DNA from: Phytophthora colocasiae
Taxonomy: Eukaryota > Oomycota > Peronosporomycetes > Peronosporales > Peronosporaceae
Direction of reading: 5' to 3'
Assembly: GCA_018806915.1 (NCBI GenBank)
Contig: JAGKQI010000053.1
Coordinates: forward strand, 62,001 to 126,000
DNA length: 64,000 nt
Under the pieces are notes generated by a model, which did not search any database, was not told the DNA's origin, and saw only the letters and a program-made list of their open reading frames with translations. Shown piece by piece: positions 11,766-61,306 of the stretch (positions are counted from its first letter, which is position 1; each line of letters opens with the position of its first letter). A program made the position numbers and the translations under genes.

Positions 11766-12226
11766 TGTAATGGGTCTACTTAGACCTATTAGGTGGCGTA
11801 CACGTGCGCTTACGTGTATGAGGAAGCGTGCAAATAGAATAGACTTAATTTAAGTATACTTATTTAAATAAGTATAATTAAATCAAGTATAACTAAATTA
11901 AACTGCAAAAATACCGTAAAATGAGAACTGTTATTGAATTTGGCATAAGCCAATTATGGACCTCCTAAAACTGTTTGTTATCTATTTCTAAAGGGTCTGC
12001 CAACGTGTGGTTGGCAGAAACTCTGCTCAGTGATTGGTAGAAATCCGTTACTTTCTACCAATAATATGCACAAATGCACACGAACCATCCAATAATGTGG
12101 TTCGCCCATGTATCCATTGGTGTGTACAGCACACCAAGGTCTGAGGCCCATTTCCAACCTCTAACAGTTATCCTAACTGTTAGAGTTACAAGTGGTACAA
12201 CCACTTGTACGTGTAACCCCGTTACA
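11766..12226 (-). repeat. C1 3' LTR
   Basis: 461 bp from TGTAATGGGTC to CCCCGTTACA, same as 47355-47814, 55127-55586 and 63551-64000. It is almost entirely made of perfect inverted repeats: a 22-nt palindrome at 11855-11876, TCTGCCAAC/GTTGGCAGA, ATTGGTAGAAA/TTTCTACCAAT, CTAACAGTTA/TAACTGTTAG, ACAAGTGGT/ACCACTTGT and GTGTAAC/GTTACAC. Left flank AAAGAC is the likely start of the target duplication. Confidence 0.95.
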
Positions 12227-12327
12227 CCATCCCCCCGTTAAGATTCGACGTATCGGTCTCGATACGTCAATCAACAGAACTTGACAAGACCGTCAAGTTC
12301 CCAAGAGAAATCCGAGTTCATTTCGCA
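12227..12327 (+). promoter_or_regulatory. C1 polypurine tract and initiator-like site for the antisense ORF
   Basis: CCATCCCCCCGTT (12227-12239) is the polypurine tract on the element strand. Two perfect 9-bp stems follow (GACGTATCG/CGATACGTC and GAACTTGAC/GTCAAGTTC). TCATTTCGCAAT at 12318-12329 fits the core of the oomycete initiator consensus (TCATTYYNCAWT) and overlaps the aORF start codon. This would give transcription away from the 3' LTR on the antisense strand. The match could be chance. Confidence 0.45.
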
Positions 12328-13875
12328 ATGGACTCGCCAACGCCCACGTCTCCGTCCGCTACTGCGGACGCGCAAGCCTCACCTGCTGCCTCTGCAGCAG
12401 GAACAACGACCTCAGCAGTGCTCACTAGCACTGCTGCTTCCAGCGGTCCGACAGAGAAGCTCTCTGTCACCAAGTACCACGCTCTCCATAAGGAGAAGCA
12501 TGAGAAGAAGAAGAAGTCTTCTTCTCTAGCAGAGATTAAGAATCCTGCTGTCCCTCTCAAAGAACTCTTTGGAGAGGACTACGAAGACATCCTCGACTAC
12601 GAGGAGGATGTCGAGGAGGGGGAGGTTGATGTCAAGGCTCCCGCTCCCGTGTCTTCGTCCGAAGACACGTCAGACCCACCCGTGGGATCTCGACGACCTC
12701 GTGATGAGGCCTCGGACGCTTCAAGCTCGAAGCGTCCGCGCAGTGATGATGAAGCGTCCCCCATGTCGAGGGCGCTCACTGCCCCGCGCACTGATCCGCC
12801 AGTGCGCACACCATGGATGCCTACTGAGGCTGAGATCCATGACCGGTTCGGTGCAAGTTCACCACCGAACCCGATACTGTTGTACTCATGCAACAGTATC
12901 AACGACGACGACGTCGCCGCTAAGGTTGTCTTTGAGTCCGAGACTCAAAGACGCGACTACTATATCGGGCTCTTCCACGAGCTCCGATATTATGCAGCGA
13001 AGAAGACTTCGCGCAAGAGCAAAGTGCCAGAGTGGCAGGCACTTTGTCAGTCGTGGAACGCCTTTGTTGAAAACTTCAACAAAGACCCGAAGGCATATCG
13101 CGATCGCGTTGCTGCGGCTCGCGATCGCTACTACACTTACACTACACGTGGTAAGTGTGAACGCCTCCATGATCAGTCCATGGAAGCGGGGATCCCATGT
13201 GCCGTTCCCTTTGGCACACCCTGCCCGTGTTGCCAACCCTTGGCAACACGTCTCACCGAAAGTGATCTCCTGGGGTACACGATTGTCCGTGTACCCGATC
13301 ACATCAAGGAGCTCCGTGGTCGTATTGTGCCACGCGAAGCTCCGAGTGCTGTGGCTGACCGCAGCACTCCTCGTGCAGGGATTACCCCTGCAAGTTATGG
13401 TGGGCTTCGTACGCCCTCACCATTTCCGGAACGTCCTCCATCAGGACGTTCCGCGGCTCCCATGTATCTCGATGGGGAGGAAATCCTCTCCAACGAATAC
13501 GAAAACGAACCCCTTGAGAGTTCGTTCTCTTATGAGCCACGATCCGCTCCACAATCCAGCGGATCGCTCCACGCGCGTCGCGCAACGGCGGCGGAGGGGG
13601 TGGGAACACTCCCTCCGCATGGTCAACGCTATGACCATGACGATTGTGCCCTGCACGATCGAGTTGCTGCGCTGGAGCAGACACAGAGCGCTGAGATAGC
13701 TGCTATGAAGCAGGAGGTTCGTGTCCTCCGTGCTGAGGTCTGCGAGGCAGCTCAGACTGCCTCGAACCTCTCGTCCGGTCTTGGGACGAGAGTGAACCGG
13801 TTGATCGACCGTGTCGACGGTCTCGAGAAGGCCTTCCAGGCCTCTCGCACTCCTCAGTCGGACTACCAGCCCTAG
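12328..13875 (+). CDS. C1 antisense ORF (aORF-C), 515 aa, unknown function
   Basis: Intact ORF on the strand opposite to C1 pol, beginning 102 bp inside the 3' LTR. I do not recognise the family. Visible parts: Ser/Ala/Thr-rich N-terminus, a Lys run near residue 58, an acidic stretch (about 80-110), the basic motif KRPR near 135, and an aromatic-rich central region (about 155-310) with a CPCC cysteine cluster near 298. The C-terminal coiled coil spans about 443-505. The last ~490 bp overlap the chromodomain end of pol antisense. The coding sequence itself is made of short hairpins. Layout is like aORF-D. C2 carries a broken copy (47916-49459). A regulatory protein made from the antisense strand, by analogy with HBZ of HTLV-1, is only a suggestion. 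Confidence 0.65.
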   Translation: MDSPTPTSPSATADAQASPAASAAGTTTSAVLTSTAASSGPTEKLSVTKYHALHKEKHEKKKKSSSLAEIKNPAVPLKELFGEDYEDILDYEEDVEEGEVDVKAPAPVSSSEDTSDPPVGSRRPRDEASDASSSKRPRSDDEASPMSRALTAPRTDPPVRTPWMPTEAEIHDRFGASSPPNPILLYSCNSINDDDVAAKVVFESETQRRDYYIGLFHELRYYAAKKTSRKSKVPEWQALCQSWNAFVENFNKDPKAYRDRVAAARDRYYTYTTRGKCERLHDQSMEAGIPCAVPFGTPCPCCQPLATRLTESDLLGYTIVRVPDHIKELRGRIVPREAPSAVADRSTPRAGITPASYGGLRTPSPFPERPPSGRSAAPMYLDGEEILSNEYENEPLESSFSYEPRSAPQSSGSLHARRATAAEGVGTLPPHGQRYDHDDCALHDRVAALEQTQSAEIAAMKQEVRVLRAEVCEAAQTASNLSSGLGTRVNRLIDRVDGLEKAFQASRTPQSDYQP

Positions 13876-15133
13876 GTAGTCCGTGCTGCACGTACGGCTT
13901 CAACCGCCCGACGTAGAAGGTCGGGTGGAGCCTCATGCTGGACGGTATGTCCAGCCGGTACGCGTTACCATGCCGTTCAAGTACTTTGAACGGCCCAATG
14001 AATCTTGGAGCAAGCTTGCTTGCTCCAAAGTCAGACACTGCATGTCTAGGTAGGTTTTGTGTAGCTAACAAAACTAATGAACCCACTTTGAATTCATTTG
14101 TGTTGCCTCTACCAACAGTATCAGCGTTCAGCTTCTGTCGATCGACAGAAGCTGCGATAGCATCCTGGACAAACCGTATGACGCCTTGTCTTCGCTGGAC
14201 AAAGTCTAGCGCACCCGAGCTGAATCCTTTCAGCTTGTCGCCCTTGTCAGCAGCAGGCCCTGCCTGCTCGCTATCATCTCTCATGTCTGTGCCCGGCACA
14301 GACATCGCGCGCTCGTTCCTGCTCGAACGAGACGTCGCACGCGTCACCGCAGCTGATAGTGTGCTGCTATCAGTTGCATTCTGCGGTTGTTCGGACGCAA
14401 CCGTAGATCCTCCCCCACTTAAGGAGGAAACTACCCCGCCGAGCATGCTCGGCAATCGTGGATGCCTCATGGCGTTCACGTAGAACGGTGTATGCCCTGT
14501 CGAGGCATGCACCGAGTTGTTGATGGCAAACTCTGCCATCGGCAAGCACTCGCTCCAATGCGGGAACGAGTGAGCGTAGCTCTTCAACGTGTCACCCAGT
14601 ACACGGTTGACACGTTCGGTCTGCCCGTCCGTCTGCGGATGATCCGCAGTCGACATTGATAATTGTGAGCCAAGAAGTGTAAACACTTCTTGCCAGAACC
14701 GCGCTGTGAAGCGTGGATCACGGTCCGACACAATGTCGAGCGGCATGCCATGGTGTTTGAACACCATGTCAACAAACAGTCGCGCAGTCTGCGCGGCTGT
14801 AACAGTAGCCGGGACGGCAGCAAGATGAACCATCTTGCTGAATCGGTCCACAAAGACAACGATGCCCGTCCTCCGCTTGCTGTCAGGCGGAAGACCGAAG
14901 ACAAAGTCCATGGACATGGACTGCCAACACTCCGACGGAGTCGGTAGTGATTGAAGAGGAGCCTGCGAGAACTGCGCAGGCTTCACGCGTTGACAAACCT
15001 CGCAAGCACGTACGTACTTGCGCACCCACTTGTACTGGTGGTGCCAGTAGAAGTCACGCGTGAGAAGAGTGTATGTCTTCTCACGACCCGGATGCCCTGC
15101 CGTGGGGGCATCGTGATACTCGAACATGATCCT
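13382..15133 (-). pseudogene. pol: C1 pol: integrase and chromodomain
   Basis: Reading leftwards from 15133: integrase zinc region (HDAPTAGHPG and CEVCQRV), catalytic core with MDFVFGLP, the D of SDRDPRF and the E of DGQTERVNR, then the GPF module (PRFIGPFKVL, HPTFYVGRLK). After a frame change near 13690 comes a chromodomain (WIVERIVAHKR to FRIRWRGFPPHRDTWEP, 13580-13420). All integrase catalytic residues appear present. The right end is interrupted by a 264-bp insertion. The left ~490 bp lie antisense to aORF-C. Confidence 0.9.
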
Positions 15134-15397
15134 TCCTCCGGCATGCCCACTCAACCAAAGGATTACTGGAATCGACTTTCAATCGACCACGTAAGATTTT
15201 GCCAATGTATTTACTGGTTGCTCTGGATGTGCAGAGACCCAAAAGCTCACGGTACCGCTCGTTTTGGATCAGGGTGTGTAGACGCCATAAGTGTCTTGCA
15301 CAACTTTTTTAAGTTGCTCGTATGACATATCCAGCATTTGCTCTTCAGTTGACGGTTCCGTAGATTTGTCGGTATTTTCTTCCTTTACCATTGATAC
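15134..15397. mobile_element. 264-bp insertion in C1 pol with 5-bp duplication
   Basis: C2 reads GATCCTCAACC without a break (about 50711-50721). C1 has 264 extra bp between two copies of ATCCT (15129-15133 and 15398-15402). The ends show no TIR and no TG/CA. The minus strand contains two adjacent coding-like stretches in different frames, one with the peptide MLDMSYEQLKKVVQDTYG and one with RELLGLCTSRATSKYIGKI. The source is unknown. It may be a captured gene fragment or part of a non-autonomous element. It lies just before the integrase zinc finger and breaks pol. Confidence 0.65.
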
Positions 15398-16830
15398 ATC
15401 CTCAACCGGAGGTCATGATCATTCGGAACGACAATGCGATCCGCATTGTCGTCTACTGCACTGTACAACAGTAGGCCTTCGTGTACACGATAGCGATGTA
15501 CACGAGCTCGAAGATGAGGGGTTAGCTTCCGACGTGCCACGTCGGAAGGTGCTGCGAGGAACTCCAGCAGCCCCTTCGCGTCTGCATCCCTTGCATACGC
15601 GTTCTTCACGTCGTCAATCAGCGTTGACGACGGCACACTTGTCCTCACGACGCCAACAGCGTTGGCGTCGACCGTCTCCGCATAGTCAGGTCGACGCGAT
15701 AACGCGTCGGCCACTACATTGAGTCTTCCGGGTTTGTACTCCACCCGGAAGTTGTACTCCGCGAAGAAGGACAACCATCTCGCCATACGTTGCGAGATGT
15801 GCGGCGACTTAATCGCCGTACGCAATGATGCGTGGTCTGTATAGACCACGAACGGTCTACTCCCAAGTAGATACACTCGGAACTTTGCGAGTGCATACTT
15901 CATGGCAAGGAGCTCCTTGTCATGTACGGGATAGTTACGCTCAGCTGGCTTCAGCTGACGCGATTGATAGTAGACTACACGATCACGCCCTTCGTGATCG
16001 TGTTGCATCAATGCACATCCGATTGCAAAGTCGGATGCATCGCACACTACGTGGAATGGACGATCTTGGTCCGCCACGGCCAAGATCGGCGCTTCAGTCA
16101 AGCCCTGCTTGACTGCACCGAATGCCTCCTCGCACTCGGTCGTCCAAATCCACTCAGCTTCTTTCTTAAGAAGCTGTGACAACGGGCGAATCTTGCCCGC
16201 ATAGTTCTCCACGTACTTGCACAAGTACGTGGCAAAGCCCAAGGAACTGCCTCAGTTCCTTCACATTGGATGGCGTGGGCCATTCATTGATCACTCTGAC
16301 CTTCTCTGGGTCAGGGCGCACGCCGTCTTTCCCCACGAGACACCCCAGCACGGGTATCTCGCTCGCCCCGAAGATACACTTCTTCAGGGCGTTCGCATAG
16401 AGCTTATGTTTCCTCATAGCTCTAGCAGCTTCCGGAGATGCACCTTGTGCATCTCAATGTCCGTCTTCCGTTCACAGCCCGGCTGTGGACGAACACGTCG
16501 TCGAAGTAGCTCGGTGCGAAGTCGCGCACCGAGCGCAATAGATGTGTCACGCATCTATTGAACGTCGCAGGGGCGTTCTTAAGCCCCTGCGGCATGACGA
16601 GCCACTCCCAAAGCATACCGCTTGGAGTGCTTACCGCAGTGAGAGGGATGTCCCTCTCACGCATGAGGATCTGATAGAATCCATCACGCAGATCTAGAGC
16701 ACTGAAGATAGTGCTCAAGGCCATCGAATCGATGATAACATCTTTTCGCGGTATCGGCGTCTGCGCCGGTATCGTCGCATCGTTCAACTTGTTGTACGCA
16801 TGAACGATGCGCCAGCCGCCCTGTGGTTTC
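15398..16830 (-). pseudogene. pol: C1 pol: RT (partial) and RNase H
   Basis: From 16830 leftwards: RT block KPQGGWRIVHAYNKLND, FSALDLRDGFYQI, MPQGLKNAPATFN, catalytic YFDD (about 16510), LKKCIFGASEIPVLG after a frame change, then the resident gypsy RNase H with intact CDASDFAIG, Glu and TDHASL motifs and the closing LSRRPDY. Frame breaks occur near 16465, 16390 and 16235. The N-terminal RT codons and protease are lost at the copia-2 junction. Unlike A and B there is no second RNase H. Confidence 0.9.
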
Positions 16831-38989: not shown

Positions 38990-39000
38990 GGAGGGGCGGT
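38990..39000 (+). other. B polypurine tract
   Basis: GGAGGGGCGGT precedes TGACATGATG and resembles the tract of A2 (GGGGGCGGA before TGTGG). It defines the probable 3' LTR start. The stretch 38760-38989 carries no gene that I can support. Confidence 0.6.
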
Positions 39001-41880: not shown

Positions 41881-42058
41881 ATGGTGCGCGTGCCCGGATC
41901 TTCTGGTGACTTCGGATATCACCGTGAGTCCCAAGAAGATGTCAAGGTAAAAGAAGAACAAGGGAAGAAGTGCCTACGAATGTTGGATCGACGGAGGCAC
42001 CACTGAAAACAGAAAGATCCACAGATCAGCAGAGTTCTGGGAGGATCTCTACTGACAG
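41881..42058 (+). other. A2 primer site, leader exon and probable intron
   Basis: TGGTGCGCGTGCCCGG (from 41882) is the primer-binding site; the tRNA was not identified. As in A3, an ATG (41881) overlaps it, with GTGAGT at 41924 and CTACTGACAG ending at 42058, again giving a 135-bp intron. In A2 the exon is 1 bp longer and the downstream exon 2 bp shorter than in A3. The spliced ATG is therefore out of frame with gag here, by decay or read error. Confidence 0.45.
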
Positions 42059-44207: not shown

Positions 44208-44245
44208 GACGCTCGCCGGTTTGGAAACCGGTACGAGCCGAGCGT
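44198..44245 (+). promoter_or_regulatory. A2 gag/pol -1 ribosomal frameshift signal
   Basis: GTTAAAC (44198-44204), stop TAG (44205), 4-nt spacer, outer stem ACGCTCG/CGAGCGT (44209-44215, 44239-44245). The inner stem CCGGTTT/AAACCGG with loop GG (44216-44231) stacks on it directly, with a 7-nt bulge TACGAGC on the 3' side. Layout and spacing equal those of B. The -1 frame is open into protease. Confidence 0.75.
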
Positions 44246-45772: not shown

Positions 45773-47354
45773 CCGATAATCTCGCAGTAGTACCGGAGAT
45801 CCAGATTTCCACCACTGAAGAAGTCAGGATCGAAGATCTGCAAGTAGGAAATCCGGGATCGGCTACCCCGGAGGAGATCGAGAAACTTCGACAGATTATT
45901 TGGAAGAAGCGACATCTCCTGATCGGAAAGGGAAACGCACTTCCTCCAGCGGCCAAGGGTGTTATATGCGATATCGACGTGGGTGACGCAAAGCCGATCG
46001 CACAACGAGTCCGGAAAGGTGGCGCCACAGTTCCGCGAGAAAGTATCGGATCTCATCAAAGGACTCCTAGCTGCCAAGATCATCCGGCCATCGACCTCGC
46101 CATGGGCATCGCCGATCGTGGTGATCATCAAGAAGAACGGTGTAGACATCCGACTATGTATCGATTATCGGCTGGTGAACGGTCTCACGAGGCTGATGAT
46201 CTACCCAATGCCTCTGATCAATGACCTGTTAGAAGATCTTGACAAAGTTCTGTGGTACTGTTCATTAGACATGGCAAGTGGATTCTGGGTCGTATCAATG
46301 ACCGATCGAGCTCGCGCGATCTCAGCTTTCATCACCCGTTCGGCCTCTTCGAGTGGAATCGCATGCCGTTCGGGCTGAAGAACGCCCCTCAGATCTATCA
46401 ACGTCTTGTGGACAACGCCCTATATGGATTTTTGAAGATCTCCCAGTCAGGGAATACGAAAGACTCTACAGATGTGTTTGAATCAGGGGTCCCGGAAGAT
46501 CCTGGTCGCCCGTCGGTTCTAGGACGGAGATCTTACATCGACGATATCTTGATCACGGCTGGAACATGGGATCAAATGTGCGATCGGGTGGAAGACCTAT
46601 TGGAGGCCTGTGATAAGTGGAATCTCTCGATCAGTGTGGCGAAGAGCTTCTGGGGCATGGATAAGGTGGAATATCTCGGACACAAAGTGTCGATCGACGG
46701 ATTGGAGGCAAACCCGAAAGACCTGAAGTCTCTGACAGATCTGCCATTCCCTGGGTCGCTCCGATCCATGCAATCGTTCCTGGGAAGTTTGAATTACTAT
46801 AGTCGGTTCATCGAGGATTATGCGATCTATGCATCGGTCCTATATGAACTACGTGAAGTGGAGTTCGCAGAACTGAAGAAGCGACCAGATCTTCGAAAGA
46901 TCATGGATAGTACGGACCCGATCAATCGAGATCCCGTTGCGCTTAAGTCGAATCAGGATGGATCACCCGACACCTTGACTCAAAAGGGGAATAGTACGCC
47001 GGATTTTAACTTGAGGGCGACGCCTCCCCCCTGTTCAAGCAAGGTCGGAGCCAATCTGGCCCAAAGAGCTGGCGACGAAAGGTGGGGTAGGGCACACAGG
47101 GCGTTTACAGCCTTGAAAACCAAGATCGCGTCGACCCCGATCCTTCGTCACTTCGACATGACAAAGTTACCCGTGGTGATCGTGTATGCCAGTGACTGGG
47201 CGATTTCCGCCGCACTAATGCAGGAACACGACCAGATCTACCACCCGGTCGCGTTTGCCAGCCGAACCTTGAAGACGAACGAGTTAAACTATAATGTTGC
47301 CGAAAAGGAGGTGTTGGCTCTACTTCGGATCCTGGATCTACACTACACCCTGTT
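45750..47354 (+). pseudogene. pol: A2 Pol: RT and degenerate RNase H, interrupted by C2
   Basis: After the frame change the linker ends with CDIDVGDAKPIAQRV. RT has LCIDYRLVNGL (about 46153), CSLDMASGFW, MPFGLKNAPQIYQ and catalytic SYIDDILI (about 46533). The resident RNase H begins IVYASDWAISAAL (about 47178), where TDAS would be expected, so the first catalytic Asp is replaced by Tyr. Frame breaks lie near 46018 and 46345. The domain is cut at 47354 in LDLHYTLF and resumes at 55592. Confidence 0.88.
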
Positions 47355-47814
47355 TGTAATGGGTCTACCTAGACCTATTAGGTGGCGTACACGTGCGCTT
47401 ACGTGTATGAGGAAGCGTGCAATTAGAATAGACTTAATTTAAGTATACTTATTTAAATAAGTATAATTAAATCAAATATAACTAAATTAAACTGCAAAAT
47501 ACCGTAAAATGAGAACTGTTATTGAATTTGGCATAAGCCAATTATGGACCTCCTAAAACTGTTTGTTATCTATTTCTAAAGGGTCTGCCAACGTGTGGTT
47601 GGCAGAAACTCTGCTCAGTGATTGGTAGAAATCCGTTACTTTCTACCAATAATATGCACAAATGCACACGAACCACCCAATAATGTGGTTCGCCCATGTA
47701 TCCTTTGGTGTGTACAGCACACCAAGGTCTGAGGCCCATTTCCAACCTCTAACAGTTATCCTAACTGTTAGAGTTACAAGTGGTACAACCACTTGTACGT
47801 GTAACCCCGTTACA
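47355..47814 (-). repeat. C2 3' LTR
   Basis: 460 bp, TGTAATGGG...CCGTTACA. Same hairpin-rich structure as the C1 LTR. Confidence 0.96.
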
Positions 47815-47915
47815 CCATCCCCCCGTTAAGATTCGACGTATCGGTCTCGATACGTCAATCAACAGAACTTGACAAGACCGTCAAGTTCCCAAGAGAAATC
47901 CGAGTTCATTTCGCA
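47815..47915 (+). promoter_or_regulatory. C2 polypurine tract and initiator-like site
   Basis: Same as C1: CCATCCCCCCGTT next to the LTR, and TCATTTCGCAAT at 47906-47917 over the aORF start codon. In C2 the flanking GAGTTC/GAACTC stem is perfect; in C1 it has one mismatch. Confidence 0.45.
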
Positions 47916-49459
47916 ATGAACTCGCCAACGCCCACGTCTCCGTCCGCTTCTGCGGACGCGCAAGCCTCACCTGCTGCCTCTGCAGCAGGAACAACGACCT
48001 CAGCAGTGCCCACTAGCACTGCTGCTTCCAGCGGTCCGACAGAGAAGCTCTCTGTCACCAAGTACCATGCTCTCCATAAGGAGAAGCATGAGAAGAAGAC
48101 TTCTTCTTCTTCTCTAGCAGAGATTAAGAATCCTGCTGTCCCTCTCAAATAACTCTTTGGAGAGGACTACGAAGACATCCTCGACTACGACGAGAATGTC
48201 GAGGAGGAGGAGGTTGATGTCAAGGCTCCCGCTCCCGTGTCTTCGTCCGAAGACACGTCAGACCCACCCGTGGGATCTCGACGACCTCGTTATGAGGTCT
48301 CGGACGCTTCAAGCTCGAAGCGTCCGCGCAGTGATGATGAAGCGTCCCCCATGTCGAGGGCGCTCACTGCCCCGCGCACTGATCCGCCAGTGCGCACACC
48401 ATGGATGCCTACTGAGGCTGAGATCCATGACCGGTTCGGTGCAAGTTCACCACCGAACCCGATACTGTTGTACTCATGCAACAGTATCAACGACGACGAC
48501 GTCGCCGCTAAGGTTGTCTTTGAGTCCGAGACTCAAAGACGCGACTACTATATCGGGCTCTTCCACGAGCTCCGATATTATGCAGCGAAGAAGACTTCGC
48601 GCAAGAGCAAAGTGCCAGAGTGGCAGGCACTTTGTCAGTCGTGGAACGCCTTTGTTGAAAACTTCAACAAAGACCCGAAGGCATATCGCGATCGCGTTGC
48701 TGCGGCTCGCGATCGCTACTACACTTACACTACACGTGGTAAGTGTGAACGCCTCCATGATCAGTCCATGGAAGCGGGGATCCCATGTGCCGTTCCCTTT
48801 GGCACACCCTGTCCGTGTTGCCCACCCTTGGCAACACGCCTCACCGAAAGTGATCTCCTGGGGTACACGGTCGTCCGTGTACCCGATCACATCAAGGAGC
48901 TCCGTGGTCGTATTGTGCTACGCGAAGCTCCGAGTGCTGTGGCTGACCGCAGCACTCCTCGTGCAGGATTACCCTGCAAGTTATGAGTGGGCTTCGTACG
49001 CCTCACCATTTCCGGAACGTCCTCCATCAGGACGTTCCGCGGCTCCATGTATCTCGATGGGGAGGAAATCCTCTCAACGAATACGAAAACGAACCCCTTG
49101 AGAGTTCGTTCTCTTATGAGCCACGATCCGCTCCACAATCCAGCGGATCGCTCCACGCGCGTCGCGCAACGGCGGCGGAGGGGGTGGGAACACTCCCTCC
49201 GCATGGTCAACGCTATGACCATGACGATTGTGCCCTGCACGATCGAGTTGCTGCGCTGGAGCAGACACAGAGCGCTGAGATAGCTGCTATGAAGCAGGAG
49301 GTTCGTGTCCTCCGTGCTGAGGTCTGCGAGGCAGCTCAGACTGCCTCGAACCTCTCGTCCGGTCTTGGGACGAGAGTGAACCGGTTGATCGACCGTGTCG
49401 ACGGTCTCGAGAAGGCCTTCCAGGCCTCTCGCACTCCTCAGTCGGACTACCAGCCCTAG
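47916..49459 (+). pseudogene. C2 antisense ORF, broken copy of aORF-C
   Basis: It is over 95% identical to C1 12328-13875 by eye. It is broken by a nonsense change (AAAGAA to AAATAA, stop at about 48150) and by several 1-bp losses around 48965-49075, after which the C-terminal coiled-coil part continues (48983-49459). One pair of losses removes a G from the left arm and a C from the right arm of the same hairpin (TGCAGGG/CCCTGCA becomes TGCAGG/CCTGCA). Confidence 0.75.
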
Positions 49460-52400
49460 GTAGTCCGTGCTGCACGTACGGCTTCAACCGCCCGACGTAG
49501 AAGGTCGGATGGAGCCTCATGCTGGACGGTATGTCCAGCCGGTACGCGTTACCATGCCGTTCAAGTACTTTGAACGGCCCAATGAATCTTTGGAGCAAGC
49601 AAGCTTGCTCCAAAGTCAGACACTGCATGTCTAGGTAGGTTTTGTGTAGCTAACAAAACTAATGAACCCACTTTGAATTCATTTGTGTTGCCTCTACCAA
49701 CAGTATCAGCGTTCAGCTTCTGTCGATCGACAGAAGCTGCGATAGCATCCTGGACAAACCGTATGACGCCTTGTCTTCGCTGGACAAAGTCTAGCGCACC
49801 CGAGCTGAATCCTTTCAGCTTGTCGCCCTTGTCAGCAGCAGGCCCTGCCTGCTCGCTATCATCTCTCATGTCTGTGCCCGGCACAGACATCGCGCGCTCG
49901 TTCCTGCTCGAACGAGACGTCGCACGCGTCACCGCAGCTGATAGTGTGCTGCTATCAGTTGCATTCTGCGGTTGTTCGGACGCAACCGTAGATCCCCCCC
50001 ACTTAAGGAGGAAGCTACCCCGCCGAGCATGCTCGGCAATCGTGGATGCCTCATGGCATTCACGTAGAACGGTGTATGCCCTGTCGAGGCATGCACCGAG
50101 TTGTTGATGGCAAACTCTGCCATCGGCAAGCACTCGCTCCAATGCGGGAACGAGTGAGCGTAGCTCTTCAGCGTGTCACCCAGTACGCGGTTGACACGTT
50201 CGGTCTGTCCGTCCGTCTGCGGATGATCCGCAGTCGACATTGACAATTGTGAACCAAGAAGTGTAAACACTTCTTGCCAGAACCGCGCTGTGAAGCGTGG
50301 GTCACGGTCCGACACAATGTCGAGCGGCATGCCATGGTGTTTGAACACCATGTCAACAAACAGTCGCGCAGTCTGCGCGGCTGTAACAGTAGCCGGGACG
50401 GCAGCAAGATGAACCATCTTGCTGAATCGGTCCACAAAGACAACGATGCCCGTCCTCCGCTTGCTGTCAGGCGGAAGACCGAAGACAAAGTCCATGGACA
50501 TGGACTGCCAACACTCCGACGGAGTCGGTAGTGATTGAAGAGGAGCCTGCGAGAACTGCGCAGGCTTAACGCGTTGACAAACCTCGCAAGCACGTACGTA
50601 CTTGCGTACCCACTTGTACTGGTGGTGCCAGTAGAAGTCACGCGTGAGAAGAGTGTATGTCTTCTCACGACCCGGATGCCCTGCCGTGGGGCATCGTGAT
50701 ACTCGAACATGATCCTCAACCGGAGGTCGCGATCATTCGGAACGACAATGCGATCCGCATTGTCGTCTACTACACTGTACAACAGTAGGCCTTCGTGTAC
50801 ACGATAGCGGTGTACACGAGCTCGAAGATGAGGTTAGCTTCCGACGTGCCACGTCGGAAGGTGCTACGAGGAACTCCAGCAGCCCCTTCGCGTCTGCATC
50901 CCTTGCATACGCGTTCTTCACGTCGTCAATCAACGTTGACGACGGCACACTTGTCCTCACGACGCCAACTGCGTTGGCGTCGACCGTCTCCGCATAGTCA
51001 GGTCGACGCGATAACGCGTCGGCCACTACATTGAGTCTTCCGGGTTTGTACTCCACCCGGAAGTTGTACTCCGCGAAGAAGGACAACCATCTCGCCATAC
51101 GTTGCGAGATGTGCGGCGATTTAATCGCCGTACGCAATGATGCGTGGTCTGTATAGACCACGAACGGTCTACTCCCAAGTAGATACACTCGGAACTTTGC
51201 GAGTGCATACTTCATGGCAAGGAGCTCCTTGTCATGTACGGGATAGTTACGCTCAGCTGGCTTCAGCTGACGCGATTGATAATGAACTACACGATCACGC
51301 CCTTCGTGATCGTGTTGCATCAATGCACATCCGATTGCAAAGTCGGATGCATCGCACACTACGTGGAATGGACGATCTTGGTCCGCCACGGCCAAGATCG
51401 GCGCTTCAGTCAAGCCCTGCTTGACTGCACCGAATGCCTCCTCGCACTCGGTCGTCCAAATCCACTCAGCTTCTTTCTTAAGAAGCTGTGACAACAGGCG
51501 AATCTTGCCCGCATAGTTCTCCACGTACTTGCACAAGTACGTGGCAAATGAGAACTGCCTCAGTTCCTTCACATTGGATGGCGTGGGCCATTCATTGATC
51601 ACTCTGACCTTCTCTGGGTCAGGGCGCACGACGTCTTTCCCCACGAGACACCCCAGCACGGGTATCTCGCTCGCCCCGAAGATACACTTCTTCAGGTTCG
51701 CATAGAGCTTATGTTTCCTCATAAGCTCTTGCAGCTTCCGGAGATGCACCTTGTGCATCTCAATGTCCGTCTTCCCGTTCACAGCCCGGCTGTGGACGAA
51801 CACGTCGTCGAAGTAGCTCGGTGCGAAGTCGCGCACCGAGCGCAATAGATGTGCCACGCATCTATTGAACGTCGCAGGGGCGTTCTTAAGCCCCTGTGGC
51901 ATGACGCCAAACCACTCCCAAAGCATACCGCTTGGAGTGCTTACCGCAGTGAGAGGATGTCCCTCTCACGCATGAGATCTGATAGAATCCATCACGCAGA
52001 TCTAGAGCACTGAAGATAGTGCTCAAGGCCATCGAATCGATGATGACATCTTTTCGCGGTATCGGCGTCTGCGCCGGTATCGTCGCATCGTTCAACTTGT
52101 TGTACGCATGAACGATGCGCCAGCCGCCCTGTGGTTTCTTAACACAGAACGTTTGGGCACTGTGCGGGGACTTTGACTCCCGCACTTGACCTGCAAGACG
52201 ACGACTTTCAAAGAAGTCGTCGATCGCTTCACTTGTTCACGCGGCAGTGGCCACTGCCGTGTAACACAGTACTTCGTGCCCGGCACGAGATCAATCTCGT
52301 GCTGTACGCCCTTATCCTTCGGAGGCTCCGAAGGAATCTCGTCAGGAGTACATCCTTGTACTCCCGCAGAATCTCGTAATAGGGACTCGACTTCAACGAG

Positions 52401-52723
52401 TCCCAACTCTGCTCCTCGAAGCGTTGCTTCTTGGTCTTCGCACTGAGGGGGTCATCGCTCTCAGTGATGCCATCGACGACGAGCTGCTTCAGCTCTTCGG
52501 CTTCGCGATCCACTCTCTCGATATCCGAGAGAATGCAAATTTGTTCGATGCGTCCATCGTACAAGTCTCGCGCGAAGCGCTTCCAACTCATCGTTGGAAG
52601 TGCGGTCAACGCCGACGCACTCGTCGGCGGATTCTCCAACCGCATCCTCCGGTACTGTAATCCAGTACCAGTACGTGTCAAGACGTTCAACGTCTCGACA
52701 CTCGGTGTCTGCACTGCAGACAC
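49074..52723 (-). pseudogene. pol: C2 pol: RT, RNase H, integrase, chromodomain
   Basis: From 52723 leftwards: a linker (VDREAEELKQLVVDG), RT (KPQGGWRIVHAYNKL, LDLRDGFYQI, MPQGLKNAP, YFDD near 51825), LKKCIFGASEIPVLG and resident RNase H (CDASDFAIG, about 51355). Integrase follows (HHCC, MDFVFGLP, SDRDPRF, DGQTERVNR), then GPF (FIGPFKVL) and a chromodomain (49240-49100). The longest piece, RT plus RNase H, runs 51926-50733. Frame changes near 51900, 50720, 50130, 49600 and 49270. The catalytic residues of all three enzymes are readable, so loss of function comes from small indels only. Confidence 0.9.
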
Positions 52724-52741
52724 ACCCGTCTCAGTCCCGGA

Positions 52742-53960
52742 CTAAGACTTGCGCAGCTCCCTGAGCTTGCGCCGCGAAGGTCTACCACGGAGCCCGGCTC
52801 CAGGTGCTCCACGTCCAAGGCATCGCACCTTGGACGGGACGTTATCGCAATCGTCAGCGGATTCCTTCCGCTGACTCGCACTATCAAGCCCGGCTTGAGT
52901 GCCGCTCATCGCGTGCAGCGCTGCTGCACGTGAGCACGCAGGTTGTTCGGGTGCTGGGCGTTTGCAACCGCCAGCACCTCCTGCCGCGCAGTCGGTTCCC
53001 TGAACCGCTGCGCCTCCATCCGCTCCCGGAGCGGATGAAGCAACCGCATCGTCGACTCCCGGAGTCGACGTGCTCTCGCTAGCTTCCTGCGCTAGCGAGT
53101 GTTCGCTTGTACACATATCATCCGTTCCCAGAGCGGATGTACGATCGCTAGTTCCCGGAACTAGCAGCGACTGTTCGCCTATACACGTCTCATCAGCTCC
53201 CGGAGCTGATGACCGATCGCTAGTTCCCGGAACTAGCAGCGAAGCGCCAGTGGCGTCAGCTCCCAGAGCTGACGCACGCCTTTCGGTTCCCCGAATATTA
53301 TTTGCTTCGTCAACTCCCAGAGTTGACGCGACGTCGTCGGCGCGACCCTTGGAGGCTTGAAGTACCTCCAAGGATACCGGTAATACCGGTATTTTACCTT
53401 CTCTCAGGTGAATCGCATTCACCTGACCATCACTCATGTGACCGCGACCCTTCGGCTCAGATTTCTGAGTCGACACACATTTTCTCACAACGACTCCCGG
53501 AGTCGTTGATGGTCGCCGGCGGCGATCGGAGGCAGCGGCGGCCGCTGCTGCCTCAACTGGGGATCCACATGCACCGGCCGGTGCATGTGCAGCACTGACA
53601 GGGCCATCGCTCTCTGTCGCGCATGTGTCGTTGAAGCGTACGAGTGTACGCTTCTCCCAGTTGATCACCGGGTCATGCCGTGCAAGCCACGGCATGCCTA
53701 ATACCAAGTCGAACTTATCGTCTAGATCCAAGACGATAAGATCTTCTACAAACGTCCTTCGTTTGTAAGAGAAGCGCACACGGACTACGCGCTTCTCAGT
53801 TCTCACGGTGGCACCTGTTGCCAACCGCACCTCAACACGCCGCGAGGCGTGTCGGCCTCTTCAGTCAAGCCTTCGAAGACTTCCCTGTCGAACAAAGTTG
53901 TTCGACGCGCCCGAAGTCCACTAGGGCACGAAGAGAGTTCGCTCTCTTCGACATCACGTT
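52742..53960 (-). pseudogene. pol: C2 protease and low-complexity linker
   Basis: The active-site Asp codon is at about 53918 on the minus strand. The DSG triad is readable only if one extra T is allowed for, and the remainder (RLATGATV, DLIVLDLDDKFDLVLGMPWL, about 53825-53690) follows in another frame. After the retropepsin core comes a repetitive Ser/Gly/Asp-rich linker (53330-53010) encoded by a palindromic minisatellite, then a basic segment (SRRKLRELRKS) ending at 52742. Confidence 0.75.
53017..53328. repeat. Minisatellite of hairpins with a constant core and varying arms
   Basis: At least seven near-perfect or perfect palindromic hairpins share a TCCC(G/A)GA core but have different arms: CATCCGC/GCGGATG (53017-53037), CGTCGAC/GTCGACG (53050-53070), GCTAGT/ACTAGC (about 53147 and 53218), TCATCAGC/GCTGATGA (about 53190), CGTCAGC/GCTGACG (about 53254) and CGTCAAC/GTTGACG (about 53308). 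A related stem CTCGCTAGC/GCTAGCGAG lies at 53075-53099. Confidence 0.85.
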
Positions 53961-55010
53961 CAGGATGACAAGGTTTGGCTTGTCATCTTGCAGCTACAGC
54001 GAGAAACCTTCTCGCTGGGGGCAGCAGTCCTCATCGTCGCGTGTCCAAGCTCGACACGCGAGACTGCATCACCAGTAGGACGCCCCGCGCCTACTGGTCG
54101 CCAGCGTTTTTGAACGCCCGCCCGCTGTGCACTCGCGTGCATAGTGACCGATGTTACTACACTTGTAACATCGAACCTTGCCGTATCTACGCTGCTGTTG
54201 ACCAGCAGGCGTAGCACTCGAGAGGTCCATAGGTTCCGGACCTCCCGTCTTCACAACAGGACGCGCCGGCTTCGGCGCGTTCATGGAAGTTTAAGCTTGA
54301 CGCCGGCTAAACTCCTCTTGCGATTGCAAGGCTGATCGCCTCCTCGAGTATTCGGATACTCTCGGAAGAGATATGTTTTGACGGGACCATCTCTTGGTCC
54401 CTTCATGAACGTGACGACCTTGGTCGCCTCGTCGATCAGGTTGGCCACTATGTTTCGATACCAAGTATCGAGCACGCTGGGCAAAGGTGTGAACATCATC
54501 CTTGCCCTGTTGCAGATCGAGAAACTCTGCTCTCGATCTGAACTCGTTCTTCGGAGGCTCAAACGCAAGCTTGAGTTCCTCCTTGAACACCTCGTACGTG
54601 CTGAAGCACGTAGGATCCGAGAGTCGGCGCCCATAGGCCCAACTCCTCGCACGTCCACCAAGACATGACATGGCGAATGCGACCTTCGACATCGGATTGA
54701 CGATACGTCGAGCCGCAACGGCTGTGTCGAGTTCGACAAGCCACCGAAGGAGGGTCTCGTCCTCCTTCCCCGTGTAGGTACTCACGTGGAGTTTCAACGA
54801 CTCCACGCGTGGCTTAGGGGAAGCCACCGAGGCAGCAACATCTCGTTGCTCCTTAACAATGTACCCCAGAGCAACACCGTGTTGCTCTGTCGGCGATAGC
54901 GTACGAAGCATCGTAGCTACCGCTGCCTCTCCAATGACTCTCGCGAGTCATTGGAGAGCCTCCCACTCTGGATCAGACAGGTGGGCGCAGTCCGTGCGCG
55001 TCACGGACAT
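53961..55010 (-). pseudogene. gag: C2 gag with CCHC knuckle
   Basis: Start ATG at 55010 (MSVTRT). An early stop lies near 54935 in the hairpin described under findings. Then comes a capsid-like region (LHVSTYTGKEDETLLRWLVELD, AFAMSCLGGRARSWAYG, ELKLAFEPPKNEF, FLDLQQGKDDVHTFAQ, 54800-54480). A CCHC knuckle, CYKCSNIGHYAREC, lies at about 54195-54150. Frame changes near 54460 and 54290. The size and single knuckle fit ordinary chromodomain gypsy elements, unlike the three-knuckle Gag of A and B. Confidence 0.85.
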
Positions 55011-55126
55011 TTGAGGAGAGTCCCCAGCGGATCCCTCATCCATTAGAGTTCTCTACCCCGCGTTCGTATGACTCCATACGAACGAACAGCAGTCGGTCGT
55101 GGGACGGACTACAAAGTGCTACCAGG
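55011..55126 (-). other. C2 leader and primer-binding site
   Basis: On the element strand the LTR is followed by CC and then TGGTAGCACTTTGTAG (about 55109-55124 in plus coordinates), a site complementary to a tRNA 3' end; I cannot name the tRNA. The leader contains a perfect stem CGTTCGTATG/CATACGAACG. Confidence 0.7.
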
Positions 55127-55586
55127 TGTAATGGGTCTACCTAGACCTATTAGGTGGCGTACACGTGCGCTTACGTGTATGAGGAAGCGTGCAATTAGAA
55201 TAGACTTAATTTAAGTATACTTATTTAAATAAGTATAATTAAATCAAATATAACTAAATTAAACTGCAAAATACCGTAAAATGAGAACTGTTATTGAATT
55301 TGGCATAAGCCAATTATGGACCTCCTAAAACTGTTTGTTATCTATTTCTAAAGGGTCTGCCAACGTGTGGTTGGCAGAAACTCTGCTCAGTGATTGGTAG
55401 AAATCCGTTACTTTCTACCAATACTATGCACAAATGCACACGAACCACCCAATAATGTGGTTCGCCCATGTATCCTTTGGTGTGTACAGCACACCAAGGT
55501 CTGAGGCCCATTTCCAACCTCTAACAGTTATCCTAACTGTTAGAGTTACAAGTGGTACAACCACTTGTACGTGTAACCCCGTTACA
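55127..55586 (-). repeat. C2 5' LTR
   Basis: 460 bp. Differs from the 3' LTR at one site seen (CCAATACTATG against CCAATAATATG). Followed by CTGTT. Confidence 0.96.
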
Positions 55587-55591
55587 CTGTT

Positions 55592-58064
55592 GGTGGGACG
55601 TCGGATCAAGGTCCTAACCAGACACTCCACGCTTGCCTGGCTGTTCAGGTCTGCCGGCCTTCAAGGGCGTCTGGGACAATGGTCTGCTCTCCTGTCCCCA
55701 TGGACACTCGAGATCACGAAGTGTACGAAGGGAGAGGATGAGATACTGGGGGCGATCGCAGCTAATATAACGCCTAGATCGGAGATCGACGAAGCTCTGA
55801 TCGCGATCGTGCCACAGAAGGAACCAAGGCGTAAGATCCAGATGCCGATTCCCACCGTAGATCCAGGCGAGGAGCTATGGGTGGTAAGTTTCGACGGTTC
55901 GGCACGCGTGAAACGAGGAGGAGGCGCTTTCAGCGCGATCGTGTGGAGTTTGCCGGAGTGGAAAGTGATCAAAGCTAGATCAGACTATGCGGAGAGTCTT
56001 ACTGTCAATGAAGCGGAATACCGTGGGCTCTTGCTAGGTCTTGGCATGATCGCACAGTTAGAACGCCGCCGTTTGGTCATTTGTGGCGATTCGAACCTAG
56101 TGATCCGACAAGTCCGGGGCGAGATCGACTGCAAGGCGCCAGGATTGACGTTACTGAAACAGAAGGTGCTAGATCACTTGCGGAATTGGGGAGATCATGA
56201 GCTAGTCCATGTGAAGAGAGACTGGAATGGGAGCGCAGACAGCTTGGCGAGTGCCGCGCTGCAGCGAGGAAGCGGGATCGAGGTCCACGATGAAGAAGAT
56301 CGGTGTGATCTGGCCACCCTAAATCGGCTTGATGAGGTGTTGATCCCTCGAGTTGAAGATCGACCGGTGCAAGTGTCGGCCGAAGCCACGGGTGCAGCCC
56401 GAGCACGACCCGATGCCGCCGTCCTACGAGAGGAACTGATCCGGGAGATGCGAGTGGATCGGATCAGGCAAGCCCAGGACGAGGAGGTCTGGATCGCCGG
56501 ACTAAAGAAGTACCTGGCTGGGCAGATCGCGGATCTTACTCGAGCCGAGTCTGGATCCTACGCCAAGATCGCTTCCGAGTACGAGGTAGATGAACAGGAT
56601 CTGTTGTTTTATTGCCCACCAGGGCCGAGATCAAGAGGTGATCGCGACCGCCTGATGAGACTCGTGGTTCCAGAAACGCTACAGCAGGATGTCCTCCACC
56701 ACTACCATACGACTCTGGAAGGGGGACATCAAGGGATCGGACGCACTTATCAGCGGATCCGAGATCATTTCCACTGGAGGGATTATATCGGGTGTGCAGC
56801 GATACGTAGGCGAGTGTGTAGACTGTGAGACCGGAAAGGGAGACCCACGATCCGGGGCGAGTCACCTGGGAATCTGCAAGCTACATACCCATTCCAGATC
56901 ATAGCGATGGATCACATACCCTCTCTGCCCAGATCCAACAAAGGCAATACTGAACTGCTGATCTGGGTGGATCTGTTCACGGGATATGTGATCGCAAAGG
57001 CTAGTTCCTCCCGATCGGCTCAGACCGTCGCGGAATCTTATGAAGAATGCGTGTTCCGCAGATTTGGCGCTAGCGAGATGATCAGGCACGATCGAGAGCC
57101 GGGCTTCATGTCCGACTTCTTCAGATCGTTTAATAGGATCCTGGGGCAGCGACAACGGGCGACGATGGCCTACCGACCACAGGCCAATGGGACTGCGGAA
57201 CGGATGGTGCAAACGGCCACTAGGGCAATCAGGATGTATGTTCAAGATCTCGATCAAAGGACTGGGATGAATATGCGGAGAGATTGACTTTCGCCATTAA
57301 CACGGCTCACGATCGGGTCGAGGAGATACCCCTCACTATTTGGTACACGGATGGGATCCAAGATCGACGTTGGAAGCAACGATCCCGATCAGGTCGACCA
57401 GACGCCACGATCGCGATCCAAGACGGTGGAGATATCGCGTTCAGAGATACTACCAGCAGTCGAGAGAACAGGTCAACGCTAAGCTGCGAGAGGCGATCGC
57501 GGACCGAGCTGATCGGCACAATGAGGATGTCGATCCGCATCAGATCGAAGCTGGATCACGAGTTTGGCTATACCTAGATCGTGTGAAGGAAGGGTATGCC
57601 CGTAAACTCGCCCACCTTTGGCATGGCCCGTTCCGTGTTGCAGAGAAGCTCAATGAATTCACGATCAAGCTGGAGATCGCGGGCTCTGATTACCATATCT
57701 TTCCGGTGGTTCATGTTTCTAAGCTAAAGCTGGTACGGAATTTCCCAGATCGACCGCGGATCGAGTTGACGGTAGATGAAGCAGATCGGCTCGATTTCGA
57801 TGAGATCCTCCTTCCGGAGGACAGTTGGGTTCAGATCTGGATGCCGATGAGTACGAAGTCGAACGGATCTCGGACATGCGAAGTGGGAAACGAACTCGCT
57901 ACGGCCGGATCTATCGTGAGTTCCTGGTGCACTGGGTCGGTTATGATGAGCCAACGTGGGTCGACGAAGCTGATCTTAACTGTGGGGCCATATTGAGCGC
58001 GTTCCTACGTGACCACGCTAATCGGAACCGGTTCGGCGTGATGCAGTCGCACGAAGAAGTGTAA
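55592..58064 (+). pseudogene. pol: A2 Pol, second half: RNase H end, second RNase H, integrase, chromodomain
   Basis: Resumes the resident RNase H after C2. The second RNase H is complete: SFDGSARVKRGGGAF (about 55888), NEAEYRGLLLG, ICGDSNLVI and NGSADSLAS. Integrase follows (GGHQGIGRTYQRI, CVDCETGKGD, WVDLFTGY, RHDREPGF, NGTAERMVQ), then the GPF-like HLWHGPFRV (about 57617) and a chromodomain (YEVERISDMRSG to FLVHWVGYDEPTWV, 57848-57965). Frame changes near 56810, 56900, 57285, 57345 and 57830. Pol ends at 58064. Confidence 0.9.
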
Positions 58065-58073
58065 AGGAAGCCA

Positions 58074-58098
58074 GGCGAGGTGACAGGGTTACCTCGCC
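58074..58098. terminator. Hairpin after A2 pol
   Basis: GGCGAGGT/ACCTCGCC, perfect 8-bp stem with a 9-nt loop, 10 bp after the pol stop and facing the antisense ORF end. It holds the same position as the larger inverted repeat in B. Bases 58099-58277 hold no gene I can support. Confidence 0.3.
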
Positions 58099-58277
58099 GG
58101 GATCAGAAGCTGATGTGGAGGAGAATCCAGATCAAAGCGAGAGTTTTATATTTGTGTATATGCATGTGCGTAGGGAATTTGACGGTGGAAGATGGTGATC
58201 CGGGATGTCGAGATGGAGATGAAAGGGATCACATTCCTAAAATGATAGAGTACGAGGAATGACTGTGAGAATGGAGA

Positions 58278-61204: not shown

Positions 61205-61294
61205 TTCGAGAGAGTGGTGGCGCTTGAACGACTTGTGTTCCAGGTGGGGACTGTTAAATAAACCCGAAGTGAGCTGCGGCAGCTCAACTTACGT

Positions 61295-61306
61295 GCTGGG
61301 GGCGGA
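61295..61306 (+). other. A2 polypurine tract
   Basis: GCTGGGGGCGGA lies directly before the 3' LTR; purine-rich apart from the first bases and one C. Confidence 0.6.

Follow-up and report, generated by a model that had tools for sequence, protein, structure and literature searches.

The closest known concept to the arrangement described here is the genome-scale ordered RNA structure (GORS) of viruses. In the portion of that work drawn on here (PMC7642675), the genomes of positive-strand RNA viruses carry hundreds of serial stem-loops along their coding sequence, their folding energy lies far under that of shuffled controls, pairing limits the fixation of mutations, and the folding excess (MFED) is 15% in SARS-CoV-2, 7.5-10.7% in HCV and 23.4% at the recorded maximum for a vertebrate RNA virus. 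The repeat family of Phytophthora colocasiae that we analyse (family C) is alike in the first three respects, but it is an LTR retrotransposon, its stems are individually perfect and its two strands are alike. Pairings are poorly conserved between related GORS viruses, whereas the stems of family C are kept among its copies, at a far lower divergence (at most about 6.5%). GORS in positive-strand RNA viruses goes together with persistence or with escape from innate sensing.

The genomic RNAs of yeast Ty3 and Ty1 are mosaics in which stable, highly structured regions make up to 30% of the RNA (PMC11381356); serial perfect hairpins, which family C has, do not figure in the parts of that description used here. 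Retand-type plant elements, like family C, carry an antisense ORF between pol and the 3' LTR, which in them has a TRP28 domain; the likeness lies in this position, hairpin saturation going unmentioned in the sections consulted (PMC11963269). Maize transposable elements (TEs) share with family C the presence of local RNA structure within the element but, in the extracts of the study that concern us (PMC10760457), their folds are pre-miRNA-like and come with more small RNAs, whereas those of family C are short perfect stems in series. The Phytophthora infestans elements Gypsy Pi-1a and Albatross (PMC3522703), and Chronos (PMC5348765), have in common with family C a related host and the superfamily; the word 'hairpin' is absent from either main text. 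We found no LTR element with serial perfect hairpins in the literature searched, which covered few subscription papers, and this agrees with the earlier note, which knew of no such described element.

The element and its copies

The window, i.e., the whole 64,000-nucleotide stretch of DNA analysed, contains three copies of family C (C1, C2 and C3), of which C2 served for most analyses. Their features are as follows.

47355..55586, minus strand: C2, Ty3/gypsy-type LTR retrotransposon of 8232 bp (self-comparison; ends from the sequence), hairpins along its entire length
47350-47354 and 55587-55591: target-site duplication CTGTT (5 bp) flanking C2, read from the sequence
55127..55586, minus strand: 460-bp LTR, 5' in gag-pol sense; its hairpins include a 22-nt palindrome at 55216-55237
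55105..55126, minus strand: putative primer-binding-site-like stretch adjoining the inner edge of the 5' LTR, sense CCTGGTAGCACTTTG..., found by eye
54291..54947, minus strand: gag capsid ORF (Pfam match, Retrotrans_gag 2e-8)
54069..54290, minus strand: gag zinc knuckle (Pfam match, zf-CCHC 9.5e-7), in a different frame in C2
52742..53860, minus strand: protease (Pfam match, RVP_2 5.5e-6) and repetitive linker of X-P-G-Z repeats (repeat analysis)
53017..53508, minus strand: repeat region with nine TC[CT]GGGA cores, their flanks unlike yet still complementary (repeat analysis)
51886..52236, minus strand: N-terminal part of RT (Pfam match, RVT_1 6e-4; 19.9 bits, short of the curated cut-off, 29.6), which C2 has in a separate frame
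50733..51965, minus strand: C-terminal part of RT and RNase H (Pfam match, RVT_1 3.8e-15, RT_RNaseH 1.3e-35)
49929..50732, minus strand: integrase (Pfam match, H2C2 zinc binding 9e-15, rve core 8e-11)
49287..49649, minus strand: integrase C-terminal SH3_Tf2-1-like domain (Pfam match, 4.9e-13)
47916..49459, plus strand: antisense ORF (aORF) between pol and the 3' LTR, split over three ORFs in C2
47901..47924, no strand: 10-bp hairpin enclosing the aORF start codon (47916), from the alignment of copies
47815..47824, minus strand: purine-rich tract, sense GGGGGGATGG, immediately 5' of the 3' LTR, found by eye
47355..47814, minus strand: 460-bp LTR, 3' in gag-pol sense, bearing hairpins (47444-47465, for example)
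11766..16829, minus strand: C1, a copy interrupted at 16830 by a B-type element, with the same hairpins as C2
62901..64000, minus strand: C3, third copy, continuing past the window end, 13.6 stems of at least 7 bp per kb

The domain matches place gag-pol of C2 on the minus strand, a point absent from the earlier note, and the domains follow the Ty3 order (gag with CCHC, protease, RT, RNase H, integrase). By its LTRs, 5-bp target-site duplication, domain order and gypsy-type Pfam families, family C classifies at the sequence level as a Ty3/gypsy LTR retrotransposon. The two LTRs of C2 differ by 1 mismatch over 460 bp (self-comparison); C2 is a young element. Its RT is homologous to Phytophthora RTs (best RT match 86% identity) and the aORF has related proteins in Phytophthora at about 43 to 84% identity, these relatives being available as proteins only. 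The aORF is intact in C1, where it forms one ORF of 515 aa (12328-13875, plus strand). Against Pfam this protein gave weak matches below the cut-off and no family above it. At E <= 1, 34 aORF proteins matched 21 Pfam families, none of them named TRP28, for which Pfam may lack a model. The hairpin at the aORF start codon is perfect in 3 of the 30 rows covering it and has one mismatch in the other 27.

Family C has hundreds of copies in the genome. The other copies that the earlier note proposed to look for are there: a single palindrome has 225 exact places, and all 64 profiled loci (L001-L064) are hairpin-dense over most of their length. The four Ty3-type loci sampled elsewhere (L069-L072) all had a stem density at or near chance. 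Searches of the same genome with diverged relatives returned mainly family C places, and none of the DNA of such relatives was found in the viral contigs and prokaryote genomes in which it was sought.

Hairpin density compared with chance and with neighbouring DNA

All eight hairpins originally cited as examples of saturation are present letter for letter at their coordinates. C2 contains 220 perfect inverted repeats with a stem of at least 6 bp and a loop of at most 15 nt, about 28 being expected by chance; their density is 26.7 per kb, with one repeat every 37 nt on average. The spacing of 20-40 bp first reported is right only when 6-bp stems are counted, and too dense for stems of at least 8 bp, whose centres have a median spacing of 52 nt and whose stem-loops cover 34% of the element. 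Stems of at least 7, 9 and 11 bp number 19.9, 10.9 and 2.4 per kb in C2 and 18.6, 10.5 and 2.8 in C1. Dinucleotide shuffles of C2 (n=20) gave means of 7.2, 0.5 and 0.0 for the whole element, which for stems of at least 9 bp is about 0.06 per kb. The excess extends to coding DNA, as had been claimed: five C2 ORFs hold 70 stems of at least 8 bp and 51 of at least 9 bp, where synonymous codon shuffles lead one to expect 2.9 and about 1.0, and serial stem-loops were recovered in gag, protease-linker, RT-RNaseH, integrase and the antisense ORF. Five control ORFs together had 6 stems of at least 8 bp (3.7 expected); the control ORF at 41970-44207 had 2 of at least 9 bp (0.13 expected). Far from equalling the density of C2, which would have refuted the earlier note, shuffles preserving codons or dinucleotides fall short of it at least 50-fold for stems of at least 9 bp.

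The stems have a characteristic size. Their length excess is humped at 9 bp (45 vs 0.3 expected) and most measure 8-11 bp, with almost strictly Watson-Crick pairing; loops are mostly under 10 nt, those of stems of at least 9 bp declining beyond 10 nt. The predicted RNA free energy is near -13 kcal/mol per stem-loop. No common loop or stem motif was detected besides the recurring G-centred hairpins of the repeat.

Hairpins span all of C2, including both LTRs and the coding DNA, and their density drops to zero immediately beyond the LTRs; a regional property of the sequence is rejected on this ground. Per kb, the two copies of element B have 0.2 stems of at least 7 bp and none of at least 9 bp, element A (6991-11700) has 2.1 and 0.4, and the control stretches 26000-40000, 41000-47300 and 56000-62000 have 1.1 and 0.1, 1.6 and 0.3, and 1.0 and 0, respectively. 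The restriction of hairpins to family C therefore holds for B and for most controls, which are near chance, but not strictly, since isolated stems of at least 11 bp occur in A (two) and in 41000-47300 (one). That chance, base composition or codon usage should produce the hairpins is hardly conceivable, refuted as it is by both kinds of shuffle and by neighbours of similar GC that are hairpin-poor; we found no point in its favour.

Variation among copies and symmetry of the strands

The variation of the stems among copies was compared with that of the sequence between them. The variation tables have 68 rows: C1, C3 and the loci L001-L068, except L005 and L035, which correspond to C2; C2 was added for calling stems and states in the double-change tally and in the majority-pair and strand-stability comparisons. 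Columns with fewer than 20 rows (variant depletion) and pairs with fewer than 15 (double changes) were dropped, and LTR columns are filled twice. Loci partly overlap on one genomic copy, and a private mutation may thus count as shared by two; variants in at least 4 rows are a class little affected by this. Such shared variants occupy 1.05% of stem columns vs 3.5% of between-hairpin columns, a value as low being reached in none of 1026 rotations of the stem annotation. The ratio of stem to between-hairpin variants per column falls from 0.89 for singletons to 0.56 (2-3 rows), 0.37 (4-9 rows) and 0.21 (at least 10 rows), private variants being slightly rarer in stems as well (49 of 1026 rotations as low). 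The depletion of shared variants is found at third codon positions (15/350 stem vs 97/748 between-hairpin columns, p 3e-6) and in the LTRs (2/276 vs 24/582). It is strongest for transversions (OR 0.35, p 0.0002) and not significant for mutations that give a plus-strand G.U (OR 0.67, p 0.15) or for the aORF region taken alone (OR 0.71, p 0.27).

AT-rich stems are longer (stem length vs GC, rho -0.39, p 9e-6; -0.35 excluding LTRs and repeat, +0.06 in a random-sequence control), with no relation of stem length to the GC of the flanks. Around the nine repeat cores, the positions at distances 5-9 from the centre are Watson-Crick paired in 45 of 45 cases, with 2-3 pair types at each distance, and two double changes at these distances are common to 12 and 15 rows. 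There are 10 double changes that keep the pairing, while six slid controls have 1-6. A cross-species peptide test was partly positive in the version with re-paired arms, which is fairer than one with a simulated and possibly too lenient control: it was suggestive for the aORF, with 17 of 22 stems for and 3 against, and even for RT, with 5 of 11 stems for and 5 against. Because transmitted mutations avoid stems, at third positions too, AT-rich stems are longer and repeat stems covary, the folding looks selected, and these sequence comparisons make it very probable that selection keeps it.

Stems could also be made without any selection on folding if template switching by reverse transcriptase or polymerase at imperfect inverted repeats rewrote one arm as the complement of the other. 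Perfect stems, scarce G.U and short loops are compatible with such a ratchet, and in L010 a 4-nt change at 51548-51551 extends a 6-bp stem to 9 bp, C2 differing again at this place. Along the same lines, loops of 0, 2 and 4 nt outside the repeat number 6, 9 and 13, self-complementary loop centres exceed the quarter that we reckoned by chance, and stems lack a clear codon register (27, 20 and 21 of 68; 15 of 27 in the protease-linker ORF). Arm correction without memory, however, predicts that shared double changes should be roughly as frequent as reversions; of the shared events, just 2 of 57 in perfect stems (with C2 as the reference) and 4 of 111 in a wider stem set are double changes. These are too few for pure mutational correction, which we reject. 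Neither would copying be expected to give longer stems at low GC, and private mutations are nearly as common in stems as elsewhere. We regard the ratchet as quite improbable.

The folding excess of C2 is about 35% in gag-pol sense (mean of 23 folding windows, minimum 21%) and 43% in antisense, that of C1 is 32% in sense (14 folding windows, minimum 3%), and five control stretches gave -4 to 6%. The C1 and C2 values surpass the viral maximum of 23.4% in the available account (PMC7642675), the shuffle and window steps differing between the two studies. Selection might act on the gag-pol genomic RNA alone, by way of compaction, of distributed sites for Gag binding or packaging, or of virus-style ordered structure. 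Hairpins cover the entire element including both LTRs, Gag carries a CCHC zinc knuckle, and the gag-pol strand folds slightly more stably, the difference per 150 nt being 1.4 kcal in gag-pol (p 0.01) and 3.1 kcal over the aORF region (p 0.005); G and A are slightly enriched in its loops (p 0.046). Mean 8-mer openness is likewise lower on this strand (0.040 vs 0.050; one shuffle 0.057, two control stretches 0.058-0.062). Against this, the antisense folding excess is equally high, no loop motif is shared outside the repeat, and G.U is tolerated no better than A.C: non-Watson-Crick majority pairs are G.U in 14 cases on the gag-pol strand vs 30 on the opposite one (p 0.02, one among several looks and a weak argument), and transmitted mutations creating G.U are alike on both strands (shared to single 21:89 vs 21:65, p 0.39). 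With no preference for G.U on the gag-pol strand, the constraint looks strand-neutral, and probably is so; selection on gag-pol RNA alone we consider unlikely.

Near-symmetry of the strands, together with six stems with a loop of 0, would also suit inverted repeats acting as duplex DNA, either as cruciforms or as symmetric protein sites affecting chromatin, integration or replication. Yet stems of 8-9 bp are poor at cruciform extrusion, no common sequence motif was noticed, and the hairpins lie throughout coding DNA rather than at borders, which leaves a duplex role with little probability.

Possible role of the folding

The reading that we favour, with a probability of about 0.6, is that the whole sequence of family C is selected for local folding into short, stable, almost strictly Watson-Crick stem-loops. 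The selected form would be the single strand and not duplex DNA. Both strands would matter, since a transcript of the antisense ORF would be complementary to the gag-pol RNA and since G.U, a pair that is stable on one strand only, is not favoured on the gag-pol strand. With each strand staying folded on itself, sense and antisense RNAs would anneal poorly and fewer sites would be open to small RNAs. Stems of such length are too short for Dicer. We propose tentatively that the hairpins serve to shield the element from antisense pairing and from RNA silencing. For such a role the drop in 8-mer openness is small, at only about 30% for the gag-pol strand and about 12% for the opposite one. In the part of the maize study used here (PMC10760457), structured TE regions have more small RNAs mapping to them, rather than fewer, and this counts against shielding, albeit with miRNA-like folds. 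It is more doubtful still that family C and relatives across Phytophthora carry a second, element-wide code, keeping both strands foldable into serial perfect hairpins of near-constant stability as a general anti-silencing counter-measure in an element whose genes run both ways.

As a natural example of overlapping codes family C is extreme, combining protein genes on both strands with a secondary structure over the whole element. Its hundreds of copies in one genome amount to a natural mutation-accumulation experiment in which selection during replication is separable from drift after insertion, and through which the question of why some RNA genomes fold end to end becomes testable. Phytophthora is a genus with published work on Dicer-like and Argonaute genes (as reported in the sections of PMC3522703 used here), and one of its transposons may have gained a structural means of coexisting with silencing.

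Hairpins in family C and its surroundings

Family C is a hairpin-rich LTR retrotransposon of the Ty3/gypsy type, and two of its copies in the window (C1 and C2) contain the following features:

47355-55586, gag-pol on minus strand: C2, bounded by an LTR pair and a 5-bp TSD
47916-49459 in C2 and 12328-13875 in C1, plus strand: antisense ORF (aORF) between pol and the 3' LTR
53017-53508, minus strand: repeat region in the linker after the protease, with nine TC[CT]GGGA cores

The LTRs of C2 mismatch at 1 of 460 positions. Its minus strand encodes, in this order, gag, a CCHC knuckle, protease, RT, RNase H, integrase and an SH3 domain, with several gag-pol domains in separate frames; open frames are longer in other copies and reach 1753 aa in the region of RT. 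Every organism name given for the RT relatives is Phytophthora (120 matches listed of 4877). The aORF has 515 aa in C1, and open frames of ~550 aa exist in many other copies. No Pfam family scored above the cut-off for it, and 497 of 8000 scored database entries are its relatives; the 120 of these listed span Phytophthora, from P. citrophthora as the closest (84%) down to about 43-52% for P. megakarya, P. sojae and P. ramorum. Together with the names of the RT relatives, the P. citrophthora match points to a Phytophthora-like oomycete as host. The aORF core is conserved around QRRDYYIGLFHELR...WQALCQSWNAFVENFNK. A 10-bp hairpin (window 47901-47924), perfect in 3 of 30 rows and with one mismatch in 27, contains the aORF start codon.

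The hairpins that the earlier note had given as examples for C1 and C2 being saturated with such structures were all found where it had placed them. Counting perfect stems of at least 9 bp with loops of up to 15 nt, C2 has 90 versus 0.5 in dinucleotide shuffles and C1 has 53 versus 0.2; the claim also held under synonymous shuffling (51 such stems versus 1.0 in five ORFs of C2). The excess in C2 was +35, +33, +34, +45, +25 and +14 at 6 to 11 bp, with 6 longer stems, so that the stem-length spectrum is not the tail of a chance distribution. Loops of the C2 stems of at least 9 bp are mostly short (0-4 nt in 48, 5-9 nt in 36, 10-14 nt in 5), and 8 longer ones reach up to 150 nt. The other stretches tested in the window are at or near chance, except for a few isolated stems (A, another element family; 41000-47300). 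Four of four Ty3-type loci elsewhere in the genome (1.2 kb each) lacked any stem of at least 8 bp.

Perfect stems of at least 11 bp occur twice in 6991-11700 and once in 41000-47300, both otherwise hairpin-poor, and an ORF at 41970-44207 has 2 stems of at least 9 bp (0.13 expected). Another element is present in three near-identical copies (about 99%; window 1627-6208, 16830-21400 and 21119-25687), two of them adjoining and having one repeat in common; in the two copies tested, inverted repeats fell below shuffles (1 vs about 4). A 23-bp minisatellite (GATCAAGCTTCGGTTAAGTGCGA-like) forms related stretches of differing copy number at 41025-41166 and 61801-62034.

Other genomic copies of family C, the search for which the earlier note had suggested, are hairpin-dense as well (loci L001-L064). 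One 18-nt palindrome of the family occurs at 225 places in the 92.5 Mb assembly. Searches of the genome with RT (102 of 3905 candidates scored) and aORF (140 of 472) gave matches for all scored candidates, so these counts are lower bounds. Compared with C2, the copies are about 1 to 6.5% divergent.

Variation within the stems

We have sorted the variants of 68 rows, leaving C2 out, by their frequency. Private variants per column were 0.142 in stems, 0.159 between hairpins and 0.213 in loops. For variants in at least four rows the corresponding values were 0.0105 (19 variants, 1815 columns), 0.035 (149 variants, 4259 columns) and 0.049 (23 variants, 469 columns). The stem to between-hairpin ratio drops with frequency, from 0.89 through 0.56 and 0.37 to 0.21. 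When the stem map was rotated along the element, 0 of 1026 rotations matched or undercut the observed rate of shared variants and 49 of 1026 that of private variants; the latter may be slightly depleted in stems as well. At third codon positions only, shared variants affect 15 of 350 stem versus 97 of 748 between-hairpin columns. Odds ratios (shared vs private, relative to between-hairpin sites) were 0.35 for stem transversions (p 0.0002), 0.50 for stem mutations creating G.U on the gag-pol strand (p 0.01) and 0.67 for those creating it on the plus strand (p 0.15). In the aORF region taken alone the depletion of shared variants was not significant (p 0.27). Since mutations after insertion strike stems nearly as often as elsewhere and are seldom transmitted, the stems appear to be under purifying selection in the replicating lineage.

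A copying mechanism that corrects one arm against the other should yield two-sided changes and reversions in roughly equal numbers. Of the shared events, 2 of 57 in perfect stems and 4 of 111 in a wider stem set are two-sided. Over all stems, 10 two-sided changes preserve pairing (4 of them shared), versus 1, 2, 2, 3, 5 and 6 (shared 0 to 3) in six slid controls. Two paired changes in the linker repeat region are common to 12 and 15 rows, and repeat exchange could have produced them in a single step. Across the nine cores of this region, Watson-Crick pairing holds throughout positions 5 to 9 from the centre (45 of 45), each of which shows 2-3 kinds of pair, and there are 3 exceptions at distance 1, 1 at 4 and 2 at 10. 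In the encoded X-Pro-Gly-Z peptides (Thr-Pro-Gly-Val, Ala-Pro-Gly-Ala, Val-Pro-Gly-Thr) the residues flanking Pro-Gly track the nucleotide pairs, and therefore X and Z covary with pairing. Stems lengthen as GC falls (rho -0.39; GC is 64% in stems of 8 bp and 45% in those of 11 bp), also outside the LTRs and the repeat, which fits selection on stability. A hypervariable 4-nt spot (window 51548-51551) adjoins a 6-bp stem, and its version in one copy (L010) lengthens this stem to 9 bp, a change that a template switch could produce.

For other species we have used the relatives' proteins instead of DNA, asking whether their peptides can still encode the stem. Fewer pairs were lost than under simulated substitutions in 16 of 18 RT stems (p 0.0003) and 16 of 23 aORF stems (p 0.01), a difference that may in part reflect ordinary conservatism. 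With arms re-paired among relatives as a second control, compensation was above expectation in 17 of 22 aORF stems and below it in 3 (pooled p 0.004), and for RT it was even (5 above and 5 below, of 11 stems; pooled p 0.07). These comparisons suggest, but do not prove, that the hairpins predate this species.

Apparent strand neutrality and a possible function

Hairpin arms are identical on both strands, and therefore only loops and G.U pairs discriminate between them. Among 1375 stem pairs, the majority non-Watson-Crick pairs comprise 14 that are G.U on the gag-pol strand, 30 that are G.U on the opposite strand and 38 others; by region, the G.U counts (gag-pol strand vs opposite) were 9 vs 20 in gag-pol, 0 vs 6 in the LTRs and 5 vs 4 in the aORF. 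Shared G.U-creating mutations were equal in number (21 and 21). The folding excess of C2 was 35% on the gag-pol strand and 43% on the opposite; in absolute terms the gag-pol strand folded slightly more strongly in the gag-pol and aORF regions, and its 8-mers were less open. Taken together, G.U counts, shared mutations, folding excess and openness do not clearly indicate that selection acts on the gag-pol RNA alone.

As family C has genes on both strands, complementary RNAs are predicted to be possible. Nearly strict Watson-Crick local stems would hold each RNA self-folded, whichever its strand, which would lessen duplex formation and reduce small-RNA access. Among 21-nt windows, 51% contain at least 5 nt of a stem of at least 8 bp and 42% contain none. 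P. infestans LTR elements give small RNAs from both strands (PMC3522703), and RNAs of vertebrate viruses with more folding evade RIG-I and PKR (PMC3950689). Against this, more small RNAs are mapped to maize TEs that are structured (PMC10760457), and openness is predicted to fall modestly; for these reasons shielding from duplex formation and small RNAs is kept as a tentative proposal, to which we would give a chance of roughly one in three.

In the literature searched, which mostly lacks subscription papers, we came upon no LTR element described as having such hairpins. The nearest concept is the genome-scale ordered RNA structure (GORS) of viruses, whose folding-excess values, with a somewhat different shuffle, are lower than those of family C. 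Family C is a Ty3/gypsy element whose fold is extreme, probably selected and, apparently, strand-neutral.
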